From Bacteroidota bacterium (GTDB lineage Bacteria; Bacteroidota; Bacteroidia; AKYH767-A; OLB10), in contig CAUJFJ010000195.1 in NCBI GenBank assembly GCA_963169675.1, positions 1-55,382 of the forward strand: a DNA stretch of 55,382 bases, in the 5' to 3' direction. The notes under the pieces were generated by a model. That model had not been told where the DNA came from, did no database searches, and saw only the letters and a list, made by a program, of their open reading frames with translations. The position numbers were made by a program, and so were the translations under genes. This document shows positions 7,026-15,916 of the stretch, piece by piece (position 1 is the first letter of the stretch; every line of letters begins with the position of its first letter).

Positions 7026-7027
7026 AA

Positions 7028-7058
7028 AAAGGCTGCTACACACACTGCAGCAGCCTTT
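7028..7058. terminator. Bidirectional hairpin terminator between convergent genes
   Basis: AAAGGCTGCT…AGCAGCCTTT 10-bp stem flanked by A/T tracts. Confidence 0.75.
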
Positions 7059-7080
7059 CGAAAAGTGATCAATGGCAACT

Positions 7081-8493
7081 TCAATCAATATTATTTTTCA
7101 CGTAGTTTCCTGTTAATTTATTGATATCATTATTTACAGAAAGTATCAACAAGCAGGTTGCAGTACAAAACACCGGACTCGTAATGCAATGGTGTCCACT
7201 CCAGCTGCCATCATTATTTTGAATTTGCAACATCCTTGCGCTGGTTTTATCATACCAGTTTTGCCAGGTATCATCCTTGCTGATAATCATACCCTCACCG
7301 GTTTGTAAGTAGCTTAAGAATTCTTCTCCACCATTATTTCCAAAACCGGAAATTACATTATCATCCTGTGCAAGTTTTTGTGCCGATTTATTAACCTGAT
7401 AAGCAGTTTCATATTTTAATGCAGTCGACTCCGGTAAGCCTGCATCTTTCAGATTAGATACTGTTACATCTTCCGATTGAATCCTCCCTTCTTTTTTTGC
7501 TTTTTTTAAGATTTCTTTTGCTTCTCGAGTTTCCTTTGCCGAAGCCCTCGCCGATCCTGATACGGAGTAAAGAACCACACCTGCTGCTGATTCAGTTGCT
7601 ACACTGTTTGTTTTTACATCCATATTACCTTTCTGGAAATCCCTGGATTTTTCTATCACTTCTTCATTAACTGTAATGCCATTCGATTGTGCCGATTCTA
7701 ATGCGCTTGTTGCAAATGACGATTGCAATACACCTGCCCATCCGGAACCTTTTAAACTACCATCAGCATTGTGATTGTTTTCGATCATGGCTACGCATTT
7801 TTGAATAGCTTGGGTAACCCGGTTTTTCAATGCCGGTTCATTTTCTGTTTCGGAAAGTATGTTGGAAAGAAATTGTGAAGTTAATACTACATCAATATTT
7901 TGTCCCAGCTTCGATTGTGGTTGTGTATAAGTCAGGGTTGTGATATTTGAACTGTTCTTGGGGGTATTTTCAACTGCTTCAAGCAAAAATTCAAGCGCTT
8001 TGTTTAATTGTTTAGAATGAGATCCTTGTTGTAAATTATTTCCGCAACGCTGCAAAGCCATCGCAACCATTGCTGTGGTGGCAGGATCTGATTTAACTGC
8101 ATGTGGGTCTTTGATTCCCTGGTTACGGTTGGATCCTGCTCCCCATCCACCATCATTTTGTTGTGCCTCATCAATCCATTCCAGTCCTTTGTGCATCGAA
8201 GTCATCACTTTTTGTGGTATAGGATGAAAGAAATCCTTATCGAGACCTTCGCCTTCAAAAGCAGTTTTAAAAACACAATGCTTTGGATCATTAGTGAATT
8301 CAGGCGATGGAGTTGGCTTATCTTCAGGCTTCTTTGTTTCCGGTTCTATTTGCTGTAAGGTAGCTGTAGGTGGAGATGTTTGTGGTGTTGTTGAGGTTGT
8401 TTTTGTTGAGGGGAGTTCCGACAGTTCAATGCTTCCAACTACTGTGCCGGCAGCAAACAGCAGTCCGGCAATAATCAAGTTATTACTTTTCAT
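7081..8493 (-). CDS. Exported protein with prenyltransferase/squalene-cyclase-like alpha/alpha-toroid repeats
   Basis: N-terminal hydrophobic segment then Pro/Thr-rich linker; QW-like repeats EAQQNDGGWGAG and QIQNNDGSWSG. Confidence 0.6.
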   Translation of the reverse strand: MKSNNLIIAGLLFAAGTVVGSIELSELPSTKTTSTTPQTSPPTATLQQIEPETKKPEDKPTPSPEFTNDPKHCVFKTAFEGEGLDKDFFHPIPQKVMTSMHKGLEWIDEAQQNDGGWGAGSNRNQGIKDPHAVKSDPATTAMVAMALQRCGNNLQQGSHSKQLNKALEFLLEAVENTPKNSSNITTLTYTQPQSKLGQNIDVVLTSQFLSNILSETENEPALKNRVTQAIQKCVAMIENNHNADGSLKGSGWAGVLQSSFATSALESAQSNGITVNEEVIEKSRDFQKGNMDVKTNSVATESAAGVVLYSVSGSARASAKETREAKEILKKAKKEGRIQSEDVTVSNLKDAGLPESTALKYETAYQVNKSAQKLAQDDNVISGFGNNGGEEFLSYLQTGEGMIISKDDTWQNWYDKTSARMLQIQNNDGSWSGHHCITSPVFCTATCLLILSVNNDINKLTGNYVKNNID

Positions 8494-8655
8494 GATAAAT
8501 AAGTTTTAGATGTTACCAACCCAAGATGTTGGCAATTTCTAAATTCCATAAAGTAGTCGGTTATTTTTTAAGAAAAGAATTACCCGAACTAAATACGGGA
8601 TCCGACACAATAAATTATGGGGTCATTCGTTCCGGTGACAAATGGTTTTTTCGGG

Positions 8656-9135
8656 CTATTTACTTATTTCGAAGTTCCCGCCATTGCCAATCTCTACACC
8701 ATTCACTTTTGCACCGTTAAAAAGCCATTTGTCACAATCGCAGCAGGCATCATCATTCTCTTTATCAAATAAAAGCCGGATATTTTCTATACGAATGGTT
8801 TTAGAACCGTCTTTTAAAGTAATATTATAAATATAGGGAGGATTAGAAACAGCAGAAGTTAGACCAAGTTTTTTCAGTGTCAGATCCCGGTTTGATCCGT
8901 TATAACTTATCAGTAAAGTATTGGCAGTGTCTGCAGATGATATGGTTATTGTCTGCAACAACAAAGTGTCAATTTCCTCATTGGTATATTGACCATTTCC
9001 GGAATTGAAATGTACAATTGTTGTTCCTGAATACACATCGGGCCGGCATTCATCACAAATCTTATTGAAGCATTTGCAACCCGAACTGAACCACATACAT
9101 AATGCTATAAAATAGCAGAGTTTTTTCCCGATCAT
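8656..9135 (-). CDS. Cys-rich putative lipoprotein, function unknown
   Basis: Lipobox-like …WFSSGC; cysteine clusters CKCFNKICDEC and CCDCDKW; 159 aa. Confidence 0.55.
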   Translation of the reverse strand: MIGKKLCYFIALCMWFSSGCKCFNKICDECRPDVYSGTTIVHFNSGNGQYTNEEIDTLLLQTITISSADTANTLLISYNGSNRDLTLKKLGLTSAVSNPPYIYNITLKDGSKTIRIENIRLLFDKENDDACCDCDKWLFNGAKVNGVEIGNGGNFEISK

Positions 9136-9175
9136 AATAATTGGGCTTCAAAGGTTAATACGCTAAGATAGGAAA

Positions 9176-12100
9176 TTAATCCTGAATTTTAGCAATATTG
9201 TCTTCGCTGACCATATCTATCAGTAAATTGATGGGATCAATTCCGGCTTCGTACGGTTTCTCTTCCACAATAACCCTGTAAGTGTTTTTCGCCTTTCTGA
9301 CAGGATGCATTTTTCTGTATAATAGCTTACCGGATTTTTTACCATCCTCCGGTTTAGCAAATACCCCGATTTCTATCCAGTCATTGACTGCAGTCTCACT
9401 TTCTCTGCCAAGAGTATCGGCACGGAATTTCTTACTTTCTGTTTCAATTGTAACTTCATACTTTCCGTTACTTAATGGCTTCGATTTTGCAGCAATGGTT
9501 CTATTGCTGAATAAAGTAATCGTCTCGAAAAGATCGGTAATAATGTATTGAAGCGAGTCAGGAGTATGTGATCGGAAAATAGAAACCGCATGATTTGAAG
9601 TAGGGTACGGCGGCTCCTTGTATGCATATGCAAGCAGAAGCTCCTGTAAGGCTGCATTCAGTTGCTTTTCTCCTATCATCTCCTTCAAGTAATACATCAC
9701 CAGACTTCCCTTTTGGTAATGGATGTATCCCTGATTTTCTACCAATTTCAAAGGAAGCTCTTTAATTCGCTCCGACCCTCGTGATCTCAGATATTCATCC
9801 ATTTCATATTTCAGAAATTTCTTCATGGCATCACGACCATATTCTTTTTCCATTACCATAAGAGCAGAGTATTGTGAAAATGTCTCCGATAACATAGTGG
9901 CACCCTGCATTTCCGAACCAATCAGCTGATGCGCCCAATACTGATGTCCCATTTCATGAGCTACTACATAAAATACCATATCGATGTCATCTTCATCTTC
10001 AATTTTTGCAATAAAACCAATGCTTTCTGAATAAGGCATTGTCCCCGGGAAAGCCTGAGCAAATGAAGCATATTTTGGAAATTCTATGATCCGAACTTGC
10101 TTGTGATAATAGGGCCCGAAATTAGTGATGTAATAATCCAGCGACTTCTTCATGGAGCTTTCCATGTTTTTGATGTTGTAAGCATGACGCTTGTCATAGT
10201 AAACTTCAACATCAATTCCTCTGTGTTTGGAACGGAGTACTTTATACCTGGCAGAAATAAAAGAATAGAAATTGATCGATTTATGATCAAGTTTATAATG
10301 ATAGAAATTTCTGTTACCTTCTTTCCATTGTTTTTGTAAGGATCCGGGCGCAACGGCAATTTCATCTTCTGAAGTGCTGAAGTAAGTTTCTACATCAACC
10401 CAGTCTGAGTTGTTTGTGATGTAGTTACTCATACATGCTTCAGTGCAATTTTGCTGTAACTTCGGTAATCTTGCATTCTCCGGTAATCCATGCTTCTTGC
10501 GCTTATCGCGATCTTCAATTTCACGGCGAGGCTGGTAGCCGATGATCGGACAAAAATCATAGTTGTTAAAGAATGAACCATTATCAACTACGGAATTAAA
10601 GGCTACATCGTTTTCAAAACCTTTTGCATCATATTGAGATTCAAATTGAATTAATATACTGTCACCTGGCATCAATGGCTTTTGGAAACGAAGTATCTGA
10701 TATTGGAGATCTTTATCATCCAGAATTTTAGTTGCTCCGGAAACAGTGATGGTAGTTGTAAAATAGGGAACAATTGTTAAATGCAAAGAATCAATAGGCA
10801 CATTGCTTTTATTCTTAGCCCAGTATTTGCCTTTAATTTCTAATCTGCGATCTTCCGGAAATAAATCTATGTTATAAACAAATGCGGTTGCCCGCGGCTG
10901 TATTGCAGTCTGATACTTTTTATACTTCTGTTCATATTTAATGTTGACTGATTCTATTTCTTCTTCTGTTTGATAGCTGTTGAGCTGCTGTGTGTTGTAA
11001 TAGATGAATCCGGCTGTTACTAACCAAAGAGTAAGAATGGATAGAATCACCGGCTTCCGGGCCCCTTTAAAACCGGTGAGAACAGATTGCATTTTTGTCC
11101 GGAAGGATGTTTCGCGCCCCCTGGTCCATGCATAAATGGTGACAAAAATGATGAGAATACAGAATAATGCCCAGTATATCCTGAACCAGGTAAGTCCGGC
11201 GACATATGGCCCAAACCCATTCATATCAGAGTAAATAAAGTCTGGTGCGCCTGAAAATTTAACCATATGAGATTCTATCTCAAGCATACGCCACACAAAA
11301 GTGTTCAGTAGGAGGAAAATGATGAAAGCAAAATACGCCAGATACTTATTGTTTATTAAAGCATGCATTAACATGGAAATAACTACTAGCATCAGTAATT
11401 TACTGTAATCAATTATAAGTAAATTAATAATATAAACTTCCGGCCTTATATCGGTAAAGCCCTTAGCAAGCTGCACCAAAATACAGGTCAGAATGCAAAC
11501 CGATTGCACAATAAAGATAATTACTGCTAGTGAAGTGAATTTTGAAAGGTAAGAAATGTGAGTAGGGTGGGGAGTGGCATCATAAATTTCGTCAATTTTA
11601 TTTTCGCGCTCTTTCCACACCAACAAACCAGAGTAAATAATTATTATCGCAATAAGAAAAGCATAGAATGCACCCTGAACATTTTCAATCATACTATGCG
11701 TCACAGGGTGTGCCGTTAACCCAAACGGGCCGGTGTTGGAAGCCAGATTAGGAATGAAATTCAGAAGTCCTGCAATCATGATAATCAAAAATGTCGGACT
11801 TTTTAAAATGCCTTTTAGCTCATATTTCAGTCTGGTAGCAAACATGATCCTGGATGCTTTCGAGGAATAAGATGGGTTGACCCGTGGAAGTGGCTTGACA
11901 GATAGTCGTACCACTTCGTCAGATAAAATATTTTTACTTTTTTTGGCTGATCGCGATTTTTCAGTGAAGGAGAATATTTTGACAGTAACTAAAACTAAAA
12001 TCGAACTGATCGCCAACCATATTAGTCTGTTGATCAGCAGCCATCCTTCCATTCCAAGTGTCATGGTATTTTTCTGACTTACAGTCCAGTATTTTGTAAG

Positions 12101-12748
12101 AATGGAAAAGGTCGTTGATCCGTATGGGTCGAGTAAAATTGCCAGCCATTCCTTATCGAGATCTTCTGCAAATGCATCAGCGATTCCCGTAGCGAGCAAT
12201 AAAACAAGTGAGCCTGCAAATGCCGCAAAAGTATTTCTTGTAAGTGCAGCAATCATAAATACTACTGAAGCGCTGAACAATGTATTGGGAACTGCCAGTT
12301 GCAGAAATCCTGCCAGATGTGCCTGAAAATAGAAAGGGCCTATTTTATCGGGATCCATGCCAGGCATCATACAGCCAATAATTATTCCCAGTGAAACACC
12401 TAATAGTGGAATGACAGAAATGGTGACTGCTCCTAAAAATCTTCCCAGCAGGTATTCCGTGCGCTTTACCGGTGTTGTGAAAATTATCTGGTAGGTATTG
12501 TAAGAGAAATCGCGTGTTGTTGAAGCTAGTACAAATGATGTCGTCATAAGCAATGTTATAAACGACATAATCGAATAGTATGTTTGTATAACAAAGGGTG
12601 CATTCTTCATGATATTTCCGAAGGATCCACCTACCGTAATATTTTCACTGTATGTTGCACCAAATATCATAAGTGCATTTATCAGAAAGAAAATATATAC
12701 CATTGGCTGCCGCAGCCAATATTTTATTTCAAACAAATAGAATTTCAT
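9176..12748 (-). CDS. ABC-2 type permease fused to an M1-like zinc metallopeptidase domain
   Basis: Multiple TM segments in the N-terminal half (ABC-2 architecture), then a soluble C-terminal half with VAHEMGHQYWAHQ…LSETFSQYSAL. Start overlaps the ATPase gene stop by 4 nt. Confidence 0.85.
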   Translation of the reverse strand: MKFYLFEIKYWLRQPMVYIFFLINALMIFGATYSENITVGGSFGNIMKNAPFVIQTYYSIMSFITLLMTTSFVLASTTRDFSYNTYQIIFTTPVKRTEYLLGRFLGAVTISVIPLLGVSLGIIIGCMMPGMDPDKIGPFYFQAHLAGFLQLAVPNTLFSASVVFMIAALTRNTFAAFAGSLVLLLATGIADAFAEDLDKEWLAILLDPYGSTTFSILTKYWTVSQKNTMTLGMEGWLLINRLIWLAISSILVLVTVKIFSFTEKSRSAKKSKNILSDEVVRLSVKPLPRVNPSYSSKASRIMFATRLKYELKGILKSPTFLIIMIAGLLNFIPNLASNTGPFGLTAHPVTHSMIENVQGAFYAFLIAIIIIYSGLLVWKERENKIDEIYDATPHPTHISYLSKFTSLAVIIFIVQSVCILTCILVQLAKGFTDIRPEVYIINLLIIDYSKLLMLVVISMLMHALINNKYLAYFAFIIFLLLNTFVWRMLEIESHMVKFSGAPDFIYSDMNGFGPYVAGLTWFRIYWALFCILIIFVTIYAWTRGRETSFRTKMQSVLTGFKGARKPVILSILTLWLVTAGFIYYNTQQLNSYQTEEEIESVNIKYEQKYKKYQTAIQPRATAFVYNIDLFPEDRRLEIKGKYWAKNKSNVPIDSLHLTIVPYFTTTITVSGATKILDDKDLQYQILRFQKPLMPGDSILIQFESQYDAKGFENDVAFNSVVDNGSFFNNYDFCPIIGYQPRREIEDRDKRKKHGLPENARLPKLQQNCTEACMSNYITNNSDWVDVETYFSTSEDEIAVAPGSLQKQWKEGNRNFYHYKLDHKSINFYSFISARYKVLRSKHRGIDVEVYYDKRHAYNIKNMESSMKKSLDYYITNFGPYYHKQVRIIEFPKYASFAQAFPGTMPYSESIGFIAKIEDEDDIDMVFYVVAHEMGHQYWAHQLIGSEMQGATMLSETFSQYSALMVMEKEYGRDAMKKFLKYEMDEYLRSRGSERIKELPLKLVENQGYIHYQKGSLVMYYLKEMIGEKQLNAALQELLLAYAYKEPPYPTSNHAVSIFRSHTPDSLQYIITDLFETITLFSNRTIAAKSKPLSNGKYEVTIETESKKFRADTLGRESETAVNDWIEIGVFAKPEDGKKSGKLLYRKMHPVRKAKNTYRVIVEEKPYEAGIDPINLLIDMVSEDNIAKIQD

Positions 12749-13611
12749 AGACTGATTGCTTTAAAAAATACATCTTCTAGATCTGCTTCCGCTTTTTTAA
12801 ATCCATTACCGGGATCTGTTTCACTATAAATGTGAATGAGCGGCTGTCCCGATACCAATTTCGATGAAATAAGCTGAAATTCTTTTTGATACTTTTCTGT
12901 CTCAGATTTGGAAATCGATTTTTCCCATATTTTTCCTTCTAAGTCAGAAAGCGCTTTCACAGGTTCACCGGCAAACAGTAATCTGCCTTTATCAATAATG
13001 GCCATATTCGGACAAAGTTCCTTGACATCCTGAACGATATGAGTTGACAGAATAACAATTACATTTTCACCGATTTCAGAGAGTAAGTTATAAAATCGGT
13101 TTCGCTCCCCTGGATCAAGTCCCGCAGTTGGCTCATCAACTATTATAAGTTGCGGATTACCAATCAGGGATTGTGCAATTCCAAAGCGCTGTTTCATTCC
13201 ACCAGAAAATCCACTGATTGACTTTTTCTTATGTTGCAGCAGATTAACCCTTTCCAGCAATGCCAGAACCAGATCTTTGCGTTCTTTAGCATTTATAATT
13301 CCTTTTAGCACAGCTATGTGATCAAGCATTTCATAGGCATTGACTCTGGGATATACACCAAATTCCTGAGGTAAATACCCCAGTACTTCCCGGACCCTTT
13401 GTTTGTTTTTAAGTACATCAATATCGCCAAGCATTACCGAACCGCTATCGGCCTCCTGCAGGGTCGCCAGTGTACGCATTAATGTCGATTTACCGGCTCC
13501 ATTTGGACCAAGCAGTCCGAACATGCCTTTGGAAATGTTAAGAGTAATGTTGTCAAGTGCTTTTACCCCGTTTGGGTAGGTTTTGCACAGGTTACTGATT
13601 TGTAATTGCAT
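12745..13611 (-). CDS. ABC transporter ATP-binding protein
   Basis: Walker A GPNGAGKST, signature SGGMKQRFGIAQ, Walker B LIIVDEPTAGLDP. Confidence 0.95.
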   Translation of the reverse strand: MQLQISNLCKTYPNGVKALDNITLNISKGMFGLLGPNGAGKSTLMRTLATLQEADSGSVMLGDIDVLKNKQRVREVLGYLPQEFGVYPRVNAYEMLDHIAVLKGIINAKERKDLVLALLERVNLLQHKKKSISGFSGGMKQRFGIAQSLIGNPQLIIVDEPTAGLDPGERNRFYNLLSEIGENVIVILSTHIVQDVKELCPNMAIIDKGRLLFAGEPVKALSDLEGKIWEKSISKSETEKYQKEFQLISSKLVSGQPLIHIYSETDPGNGFKKAEADLEDVFFKAISL

Positions 13612-13632
13612 ATAATGGGATTTGGGTACAAC

Positions 13633-13672
13633 AAAGAAAGGAATTGCTGATCAAATAGCAATTCCTTTCTTT
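13633..13672 (-). terminator. Strong hairpin between regulator and ABC ATPase genes (terminator or attenuator)
   Basis: Perfect 16-bp stem AAAGAAAGGAATTGCT / AGCAATTCCTTTCTTT with 8-nt loop. Confidence 0.6.
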
Positions 13673-13717
13673 AGGACGAACCGGGTAGTTCTCCGGTTAC
13701 AGCTTAAAAGTATTTTT

Positions 13718-14008
13718 TTAGTTGCCCGGTTTCAGATAGCTTTTGAGGTTCTCCACATAAAGTTCAAATGCTTCCAATCCTTTGGCAGTAATCTTACAGG
13801 TGGTTAAAGGGTAATTGTCACGGAAACTTTTGGTGACTTCAATATATCCCGCATCCGATAGTTTGGTAATTTGAACACTTAGGTTACCGGCTGTAGCACC
13901 GGTTTTTTCCTTTAAAAAAGAAAATTCCGCCTCCTTAACACCTACCAGTAATGAGATCACTGATAATCGCAATTGCGAGTGCAATAAAGGATCAAGATCT
14001 TTAAACAT
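13718..14008 (-). CDS. Small winged-helix transcriptional regulator
   Basis: LRLSVISLLVGVKEAEFSFLKEKTGATAGNLSVQITKLSDAGYIEVTKSF, wHTH pattern with wing; 96 aa. Confidence 0.85.
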   Translation of the reverse strand: MFKDLDPLLHSQLRLSVISLLVGVKEAEFSFLKEKTGATAGNLSVQITKLSDAGYIEVTKSFRDNYPLTTCKITAKGLEAFELYVENLKSYLKPGN

Positions 14009-14026
14009 ATGGTTCAGATTGAAATT

Positions 14027-14617
14027 TTATTTACCGTTTTGCTGTTTTTGGTACCTGATTTTTAACATGTGCCCCGGAATTATGTATCCGGTTAAGACAG
14101 CCAGCGAAATTATCAATAACTGCAGTTCGTAATTTACATAAAAACAAACCACTGCAGCAACCCAGTTAATTATTCCTCCCACTACCAAAGGCATAAATTT
14201 CATAGCACCCCCTGATACAAACAACCAGATGGCATATATAAGTAATACCATCGGATATGTTGCTACACCTAACTTCGGCATCATAACTAATACGGTCAGC
14301 AAAGATGCCAGAAAAGCAATTATCACATATTTCATGATCTCTTCTGTATATGTGGTAACCTTTTGATTTCGTTCATGCTTGTAAGAATATATTCCCGAAA
14401 TGATACCTCCAAGCGGCATTAGTATAGCCCACGGCAGAGTTGGATTATTCGTTTGTGTAATCAACAAAACGTAATTGGTTATAGCTGCAATGAACACCAT
14501 CCAACCCCAGAAGATATAGTAGAAACTATCATCTTTGAAATTCTGCTGAGCTGTTTTGATCATCTTACTGATAACCGCCAGACTTTCATTTTCAGTTAGT
14601 GCTTTTTCGTTTTCCAT
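14027..14617 (-). CDS. Integral membrane protein, unknown function, paired with the wHTH gene
   Basis: Several hydrophobic helices; 18-nt gap to the regulator gene. Confidence 0.65.
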   Translation of the reverse strand: MENEKALTENESLAVISKMIKTAQQNFKDDSFYYIFWGWMVFIAAITNYVLLITQTNNPTLPWAILMPLGGIISGIYSYKHERNQKVTTYTEEIMKYVIIAFLASLLTVLVMMPKLGVATYPMVLLIYAIWLFVSGGAMKFMPLVVGGIINWVAAVVCFYVNYELQLLIISLAVLTGYIIPGHMLKIRYQKQQNGK

Positions 14618-14677
14618 TTTTATTTTATTTATTCTTTTAAGTAGCTTCTTTTTTAATGATATTTTTCAAGCATTGGT

Positions 14678-15346
14678 CTATTGCACTTCTGCCAACGACT
14701 CTTTTGCTTTTTCATATCCCCATGATGGAGCAGTGGCTGATTTCACTTTTGTAGCTTCGAATTTTTTAATCGCCTTTTCAAAACAGGTTCTCGCTTTTTC
14801 TTTACTCCCGCCATATTCTTCCGGAGTATACATCGCTGCTAATCCCTGCAAAAGGTATGGTCGCGGATTATTTTCATCCAGCGCTATTGCTTCCTCCAAA
14901 AGCATATTCGATTTCATCCCATACTCGAAGCCTCTGTTCATCGGATCTATTCCTATTTGCATGCTCAAAATCCAGCTTTTAAGTGTCTTGATTTCTGAAT
15001 TGTTTGCCGAGACTTCTTCAGCAGCATCTGCAGCTTTAATAGCCCGTTCATAATAGCTGTCGGCTGTGGCCGGATCCTTTGATTCCATTCCACAATTCAG
15101 CAGACAATACGATTCGTAATACCGCGTCAGCCATGCTTCCGGATGCGATTTGCTTATTGCTTCAAAGGCGGTCACACCATGTTCCCAAGCCTCTATTCCT
15201 TTAGCAGATTTTAGTTCTTTCAGTTGCTTTTCAATTTGCTGTTGCAATTTCGCATCCATCGCATTTAATGCTCCCGATCCAATCAGAATCAGCACTATCA
15301 GGTAACTGGTTATCTTTTTCATGTTTATCGTTTTTGAACACTGCAA
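14678..15346 (-). CDS. Exported TPR-like protein
   Basis: Signal peptide (TSYLIVLILIGSGALNA) and helical repeats DPATADSYYERAIKAADAAEE / NPRPYLLQGLAAMYTPEEYGGSKEKARTCFEKAIKKF. Confidence 0.6.
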   Translation of the reverse strand: MQCSKTINMKKITSYLIVLILIGSGALNAMDAKLQQQIEKQLKELKSAKGIEAWEHGVTAFEAISKSHPEAWLTRYYESYCLLNCGMESKDPATADSYYERAIKAADAAEEVSANNSEIKTLKSWILSMQIGIDPMNRGFEYGMKSNMLLEEAIALDENNPRPYLLQGLAAMYTPEEYGGSKEKARTCFEKAIKKFEATKVKSATAPSWGYEKAKESLAEVQ

Positions 15347-15439
15347 ACATAAACCAGTTTATAACATAAACCAAATATATTCAATAAGATTATTTGCAAA
15401 TAATTGAAAATCAATGAATAAAAATTTACTTAAGAAAGA

Positions 15440-15916
15440 TTACTTATTCAAATAAGCCGAATACATCCACACCGTTTTCTCTTGTTGGCGGATATAATCA
15501 CTCATTAAGGCATTGGTTCCTTCATCACCGGCATCAGCAGCCAGTTCCAGAATTTTTCTTTCAAGAACCATTAGAACTTTAAAACTGCTTACGATTTCTT
15601 TAACAGCTTTTTTTCCTTCAGAAACATTTTTAAGTTCTTCGATATCCGAAAGTTTGATGTAATCGGAAAATGCATGCACAGGAGTACCTTCCAGTGTTAG
15701 CACCCGTTCGGCAATTTCATCTATTTTTAGAAGTGCATCATTGTAAAGTTCTTCGAATTTCAGATGCAGTTCAAAAAATTTATCACCACTAATATTCCAG
15801 TGAAACCCTCTGGCATTCTGATAAAAAATTTGGTAGTTGGATAATAATTCATTTAATAATTTGACAAGTTTGGCAGATTTGGTAGTATCGAGACCAATGC
15901 GGTTTAATTTTGACAT
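15440..15916 (-). CDS. dps: Dps-family ferritin-like protein
   Basis: LLSNYQIFYQNARGFHWNISGDKFFELHLKFEELYNDALLKIDEIAERVLTLEGTP. Confidence 0.92.
   Translation of the reverse strand: MSKLNRIGLDTTKSAKLVKLLNELLSNYQIFYQNARGFHWNISGDKFFELHLKFEELYNDALLKIDEIAERVLTLEGTPVHAFSDYIKLSDIEELKNVSEGKKAVKEIVSSFKVLMVLERKILELAADAGDEGTNALMSDYIRQQEKTVWMYSAYLNK

Follow-up and report, generated by a model that had tools for sequence, protein, structure and literature searches.

A seven-gene cluster of a Bacteroidia genome probably comprises a predicted HTH_34-regulated unit and a neighbouring ABC-2-type transporter with an M1-like domain

Introduction

A 3.87-Mb genome, of the class Bacteroidia judging from its named relatives, carries seven consecutive minus-strand genes on contig C195. 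From the 5′ end, these encode an exported TPR-like protein, a membrane protein, a winged-helix regulator, an ABC ATPase, a permease fused to an M1-like domain, a Cys-rich putative lipoprotein and a toroid-like protein. Does such a cluster represent one exporter-peptidase system, as the original prediction proposed, or do separate units stand side by side? Analysis of the window (the whole stretch of 55,382 nt) and of its relatives indicates that the locus probably consists of two functional units, accompanied by two loosely linked genes, and is not one system. Unit A comprises the TPR, membrane and regulator genes, and unit B the ATPase and permease-peptidase genes. Instead of naming a seven-gene system on adjacency alone, we thus put two separate units in its place: a regulator with a precise predicted binding site at one operon, which can be followed through an order of Bacteroidota, and a family of transporter-peptidases that spans several phyla, keeps the M1 zinc site and lacks the aminopeptidase residue.

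Results

Gene content of the locus

An ORF check of the window confirmed all seven ORFs at the predicted positions and with the predicted spacings: the ATPase and permease genes overlap by 4 nt, whereas 18 nt separate the regulator and membrane genes and 40 nt the permease and lipoprotein genes; the gap between the regulator and ATPase genes is 106 nt. The seven genes, in addition to the promoter and terminator elements described below, all lie on the minus strand. Comparison of the two species of the genus gave dN/dS values of 0.04-0.18 for all seven, indicating purifying selection and therefore real, selected genes. One boundary has to be moved: the TPR start was originally placed at TTG 15346, a codon that sits inside the -7 box TATGTTTG (15351-15344) of the promoter, so the start is likely ATG 15322. 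The TPR, membrane, lipoprotein and toroid proteins gave no PHROGs match.

Unit A and its predicted operator

The first gene of unit A (14678-15322) encodes a 214-residue protein with a signal peptide-like N-terminus and a weak TPR/TAtT match (5e-4). Its orthologues in relatives lie either 5′ of the membrane/wHTH pair or 3′ of a TonB-dependent receptor gene. The second gene (14027-14617) encodes a multi-TM protein of 196 residues that matched no Pfam family, with the residues W37, G38, G70, G136, G148, P181 and G182 being invariant among 19 homologues. In relatives it is located immediately 5′ of the wHTH gene, and we consider the protein the likely partner or sensor of the regulator. The third gene (13718-14008) encodes a 96-residue HTH_34 winged-helix regulator (2.9e-29), with orthologues of 56-100% identity in 23 of the 42 genomes; nothing on HTH_34 was found in the literature searched.

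Bacteroidota promoters take the form TTG-N20-TATGTTTG. Such a promoter precedes the TPR gene (15344-15374) and overlaps a predicted HTH_34 autoregulatory site, GTTTAT-N3-ATAAAC plus a third half-site, the palindromic operator spanning 15344-15372. This arrangement is kept in the sister species, and in relatives it stands 5′ of the gene that opens the unit, be it the TPR gene, the membrane gene or, in G027, the TonB receptor gene. A pattern search of the 42 genomes, allowing up to three mismatches and using the reversed pattern as control, matched 21 genomes, essentially once each, compared to two matches in all for the control. The matches fell in 21 of the 23 regulator-bearing genomes, whereas the 19 that lack the regulator gave none (Fisher p 9e-10, a value that ignores kinship). 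G030 and G040 carry the regulator and gave no match; G040 has a degenerate form at L223. A conserved palindrome in its own promoter that co-occurs with the regulator is what would be expected of an autoregulated HTH_34 operon.

We propose that the HTH_34 regulator binds the palindrome overlapping its own promoter and thereby represses unit A, with the membrane protein as the likely sensor for its release. Unit A would accordingly be an autoregulated envelope-sensing operon.

Several local variations were observed around unit A. In G027 (L213:9162-11321), as well as in L186, L187, L189, L190 and L192, a CarboxypepD_reg/TonB-dependent receptor gene is directly followed by the TPR orthologue; in G027 the operator lies 5′ of the receptor gene, giving a receptor-TPR-membrane-wHTH operon. 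Between two genus members, the segment 14027-14677 carrying the membrane gene has a dS of 1.39, compared to 0.19-0.47 for its neighbours, and the gap between the TPR and membrane genes is likewise divergent; the segment looks as if it had been swapped by recombination in one species. In the window, a ferritin-like (Dps-type) gene (15440-15916) that is missing in the sister species separates the unit A promoter from a Zn-peptidase gene.

A terminator-like hairpin between the two units

The original prediction noted no hairpin between the regulator and ATPase genes, missing a strong one at 13632-13673, with a 17-bp stem, an 8-nt loop and a U-rich 3′ arm. The 106-nt gap folds at -30.9 kcal/mol (z -5.9) and is identical at 102 of 106 positions in the sister species; in L216 and L217, too, similar hairpins are readable 3′ of the regulator. 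Although absent from the output of the terminator scan, which probably missed it since the T run forms part of the stem, the hairpin at 13632-13673 is read here as an intrinsic terminator. A dispersed repeat was considered and rejected, as the stem-loop pattern occurs once only in the genome. The strict conservation of the gap makes an attenuator conceivable in place of a plain terminator, possibly one that acts on unit B. Since a promoter scan found no promoter before the ATPase gene, transcription of unit B may rely on read-through that starts in unit A, and both units would then be coupled. At the other end of the cluster, an intrinsic terminator with a 14-pair stem followed by a T run (7027-7059) stands after the toroid gene, and the gap there is identical at 51 of 55 positions in the sister species.

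Separate conservation of units A and B

All seven genes were found in the same order in one same-genus genome (G011/L224), there without the ferritin gene that precedes the TPR gene in the window. Outside the genus, no seven-gene synteny was found by tblastn, blastp and HMM searches of 80 permease loci or by protein searches of 42-247 genomes. An HMM search of 1,189 ORFs around the 80 loci placed wHTH, membrane and TPR homologues near the same-genus locus L003 only; apart from it, they adjoin the ABC core in 0 of the 79 other permease loci. Toroid homologues were placed near L003, L063 and L075 only. The expectation that the neighbourhood of all seven families would be conserved across Bacteroidota was therefore not borne out, and the cluster characterises a lineage and is no conserved system.

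Each unit by itself is recurrent, as the original prediction rightly held. Unit A, either as TPR-membrane-wHTH or as membrane-wHTH, stands without the ABC pair in many of the order's genomes; several of these relatives have it at the same chromosomal place, with ATP2-ABC2-Zn-peptidase genes upstream and different genes after the regulator. The ATPase-permease pair recurs at 80 loci, distributed over Bacteroidota, Acidobacteriota, Planctomycetota and other phyla, and its neighbours vary.

G014, from another genus of the family, carries the regulator, the toroid gene and the ABC pair on one 11-kb contig. Such proximity suggests that the cluster may predate this genus, and it counts against the two-unit reading. 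Only part of the cluster is seen there, however: the order differs, other genes lie between, the permease gene is followed by a CPBP-like gene (read from the sequence) instead of the lipoprotein gene, and neither a lipoprotein nor a TPR gene was found at this place.

These data bear on the alternative of one lineage-specific seven-gene system, in which an ABC-M1 exporter was recruited under membrane/wHTH control and the TPR, lipoprotein and toroid proteins serve as envelope accessories. Both species of the genus carry all seven genes intact and in the same order, with purifying selection acting on each, no promoter was detected for the ATPase, membrane and toroid genes, and the proximity in G014 fits as well. 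Nevertheless, units A and B are apart in other relatives, G014 itself has a different order with intervening genes, a terminator-like hairpin separates the two units, and the full operator occurs in this genome only before the TPR gene. One system thus appears quite improbable. The joint system also fails the refuting condition set out with the original prediction: outside the genus the unit A genes do not adjoin the ABC core at the permease loci, and unit A has its own conserved promoter and operator. No promoter was found for the ATPase, membrane and toroid genes. Altogether, the original reading is partly supported, and two adjoining units with two loosely linked genes remain our preferred interpretation.

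Unit B, a predicted ABC-2-type transporter with a periplasmic M1-like domain

The ABC ATPase (12745-13611; 288 aa) is a GldA/DrrA-like nucleotide-binding domain (ABC_tran, 1.6e-28) with Walker A, Q-loop, signature, Walker B and H-loop motifs. In nearly all loci with enough sequence its gene lies directly 5′ of the permease gene, usually 10-20 nt apart. The permease-peptidase (9176-12748; 1190 aa) has 13 predicted TM helices followed by a periplasmic M1-like domain, with matches to ABC2_membrane_2 and Peptidase_M1 (8e-12). The motifs of the ATPase together with the ABC2 membrane domains identify an ABC-2-type transporter. Literature on M1-ABC permease fusions was not found in the literature searched. 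Two permease-M1 copies adjoin each other in L017, G129:C10 and G093:C24, each with its own ATPase gene in L017.

The AlphaFold model (pLDDT 80) shows 13 long hydrophobic helices, arranged as two six-TM halves plus a 13th helix. After these come a β domain, a catalytic domain and a second β domain at the C-terminus. By the positive-inside rule, which most of the charged loops obey, the last 600 residues lie outside. Structural similarity search using Foldseek gave IRAP and ERAP2 as the best PDB matches (E about 1e-16), and the Peptidase_M1 score of 45.7 bits exceeds the Pfam gathering cut-off of 27.7 bits, assigning the domain to the M1 family at the domain level. The zinc motif HExxH-x19-E is formed by H931, E932, H935 and E955; these residues, in addition to Y1011, are invariant in 41 of 41 homologues. 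The ERAP2 segment PDFAPGAMENWG aligns with PKYASFAQAFPG at the GAMEN motif, where the glutamate position (Ala899 in the window protein) is occupied by Ala in 37 and by Ser in four of the 41 homologues. It is just in this GAMEN-equivalent stretch (residues 891-919) that the model has low confidence. An invariant residue near this place, Glu908, might take over the role of the GAMEN glutamate.

The tethered extracytoplasmic peptidase of the original prediction holds as to domain and topology, which fit an extracytoplasmic M1 domain, but the aminopeptidase signature is missing. How the domain acts can be weighed on this basis. An ordinary aminopeptidase trimming exported peptides would agree with the Pfam score, the fold match to ERAP2 and IRAP, and the complete zinc site with its transition-state tyrosine. 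It is nonetheless unlikely, given that the GAMEN glutamate that would bind the substrate N-terminus is Ala or Ser throughout, and that the ERAP2-type C-terminal helical domain is missing. Recognition of the N-terminus has been ascribed to the GAMEN glutamate (PMC10343166), and replacing the corresponding E271 in LTA4H abolished activity (PMC3405069). As this residue binds the free N-terminus, we do not call the domain an aminopeptidase. A structural or substrate-binding domain without peptidase activity in the cell would explain both the loss of the catalytic-specificity motif and the zinc motif enlarged from x18 to x19, but is even less probable: the zinc ligands, the general-base glutamate and the tyrosine are invariant in 41 homologues, most of them ~44-50% identical to the query, and a non-catalytic domain would not need such a site. 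Judging from sequence and model, unit B is therefore likeliest an envelope transporter whose periplasmic peptidase differs from the classical aminopeptidases.

We propose that the ATPase, as a dimer, powers the two fused halves of the permease, and that the tethered zinc domain processes an exported or membrane-extracted substrate. In eleven Flavobacterium-type loci the pair lies between PspC/Toastrack, DUF2807 and usually transglutaminase-like genes on one side and another DUF2807 gene on the other, with the neighbour domains checked in L060 only; this setting speaks, by analogy, for a role of unit B in the envelope. More tentatively, the ABC-M1 pair could typify a widespread, undescribed class of transporters, in which a periplasmic zinc peptidase without the aminopeptidase determinant cuts exported or membrane-extracted peptides elsewhere and serves envelope stress homeostasis, a role suggested by the PspC/Toastrack neighbourhood in Flavobacterium.

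The lipoprotein and toroid genes

The two genes that follow unit B may share its transcript; they are not conserved partners of it. The putative lipoprotein (8656-9135; 159 aa, nine Cys) is a genus-level orphan for which no domain match was found: both species of the genus have it, and elsewhere in 247 genomes there was a single marginal match (1.5e-4).

The last gene (7081-8493) encodes an exported α/α-toroid-like protein of 470 residues with a squalene-cyclase C-terminal repeat (SQHop_cyclase_C, 2.1e-6). DPH, DPATTA and GHHCITSPVFCTA are invariant in four homologues; the structure model, built from four sequences, has a pLDDT of 50 and is too poor for comparing folds. The gene is present in 14 of 42 genomes of the order and 36 of 247 of the class, mostly standing alone. 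In L185 (G020:C30:21122-22301) and G001:C21:29336-30541 it is broken by stops.

The toroid gene and the ABC pair share genomes more often than expected by chance: the pair is present in 20 of 36 toroid genomes versus 40 of 211 others, and by genus in 9 of 14 versus 28 of 121 (p 0.003). They lie 5-30 kb apart in one other genus, and likewise in L063 and L075. A functional link was considered and rejected: in L063 and L075 a DnaE and an MBL-fold gene (names read from the sequence, not from a family search) lie between them and the orientation is opposite, and in the near-complete genomes G191 and G250 they are far apart. The co-occurrence most likely reflects lineage linkage.

Comparison with known systems

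The toroid protein resembles squalene-hopene cyclase and TED toroids in its QW-like repeats, which match SQHop_cyclase_C and TED_complement. It differs in being exported and in scoring far below the cyclase-model cut-offs (NCBIfam hopene cyclase, 23.3 versus 431.1 bits).

Unit A shares with the HAAS-PadR pairs the combination of a small membrane protein and a stand-alone wHTH protein, whereas its regulator is of the HTH_34 type instead of PadR-like and its membrane protein has no HAAS match, so that it does not belong to these pairs. Such membrane-protein/wHTH pairs have been described alongside PSP-type envelope-stress loci (PMC11237479), which supports, by analogy, a sensor/regulator function of unit A. 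The PSP-type loci themselves are defined by PspC/Toastrack and DUF2807-type domains (PMC11237479). The ABC-M1 pair stands beside such genes in the Flavobacterium-type loci, whereas the window locus is without a PspC gene.

Compared to ABC-2 exporters with a GldA/DrrA-like ATPase, unit B has an ATPase that scores best against the models of GldA (187 bits) and DrrA (179 bits) and a permease with ABC2_membrane domains, but both permease halves are in one chain here, followed by a periplasmic zinc domain. The gliding-motility ATPase GldA itself is a different protein, as the score against TIGR03522 was 187.4 bits versus an NCBIfam cut-off of 402.6.

A further likeness is to the M1 (gluzincin) aminopeptidases ERAP2, IRAP, PepN and LTA4H, which share with the zinc domain the HExxH...E motif, the later tyrosine (YxKG), and the N-terminal β and catalytic folds. 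By contrast, the domain of the window protein is placed behind an ABC-2 permease, has x19 in place of x18 between H935 and E955 (both invariant in 41 homologues), carries no GAMEN glutamate and is without the C-terminal ERAP1-type helical domain. If active, such an M1-like domain would widen what M1 peptidases do.
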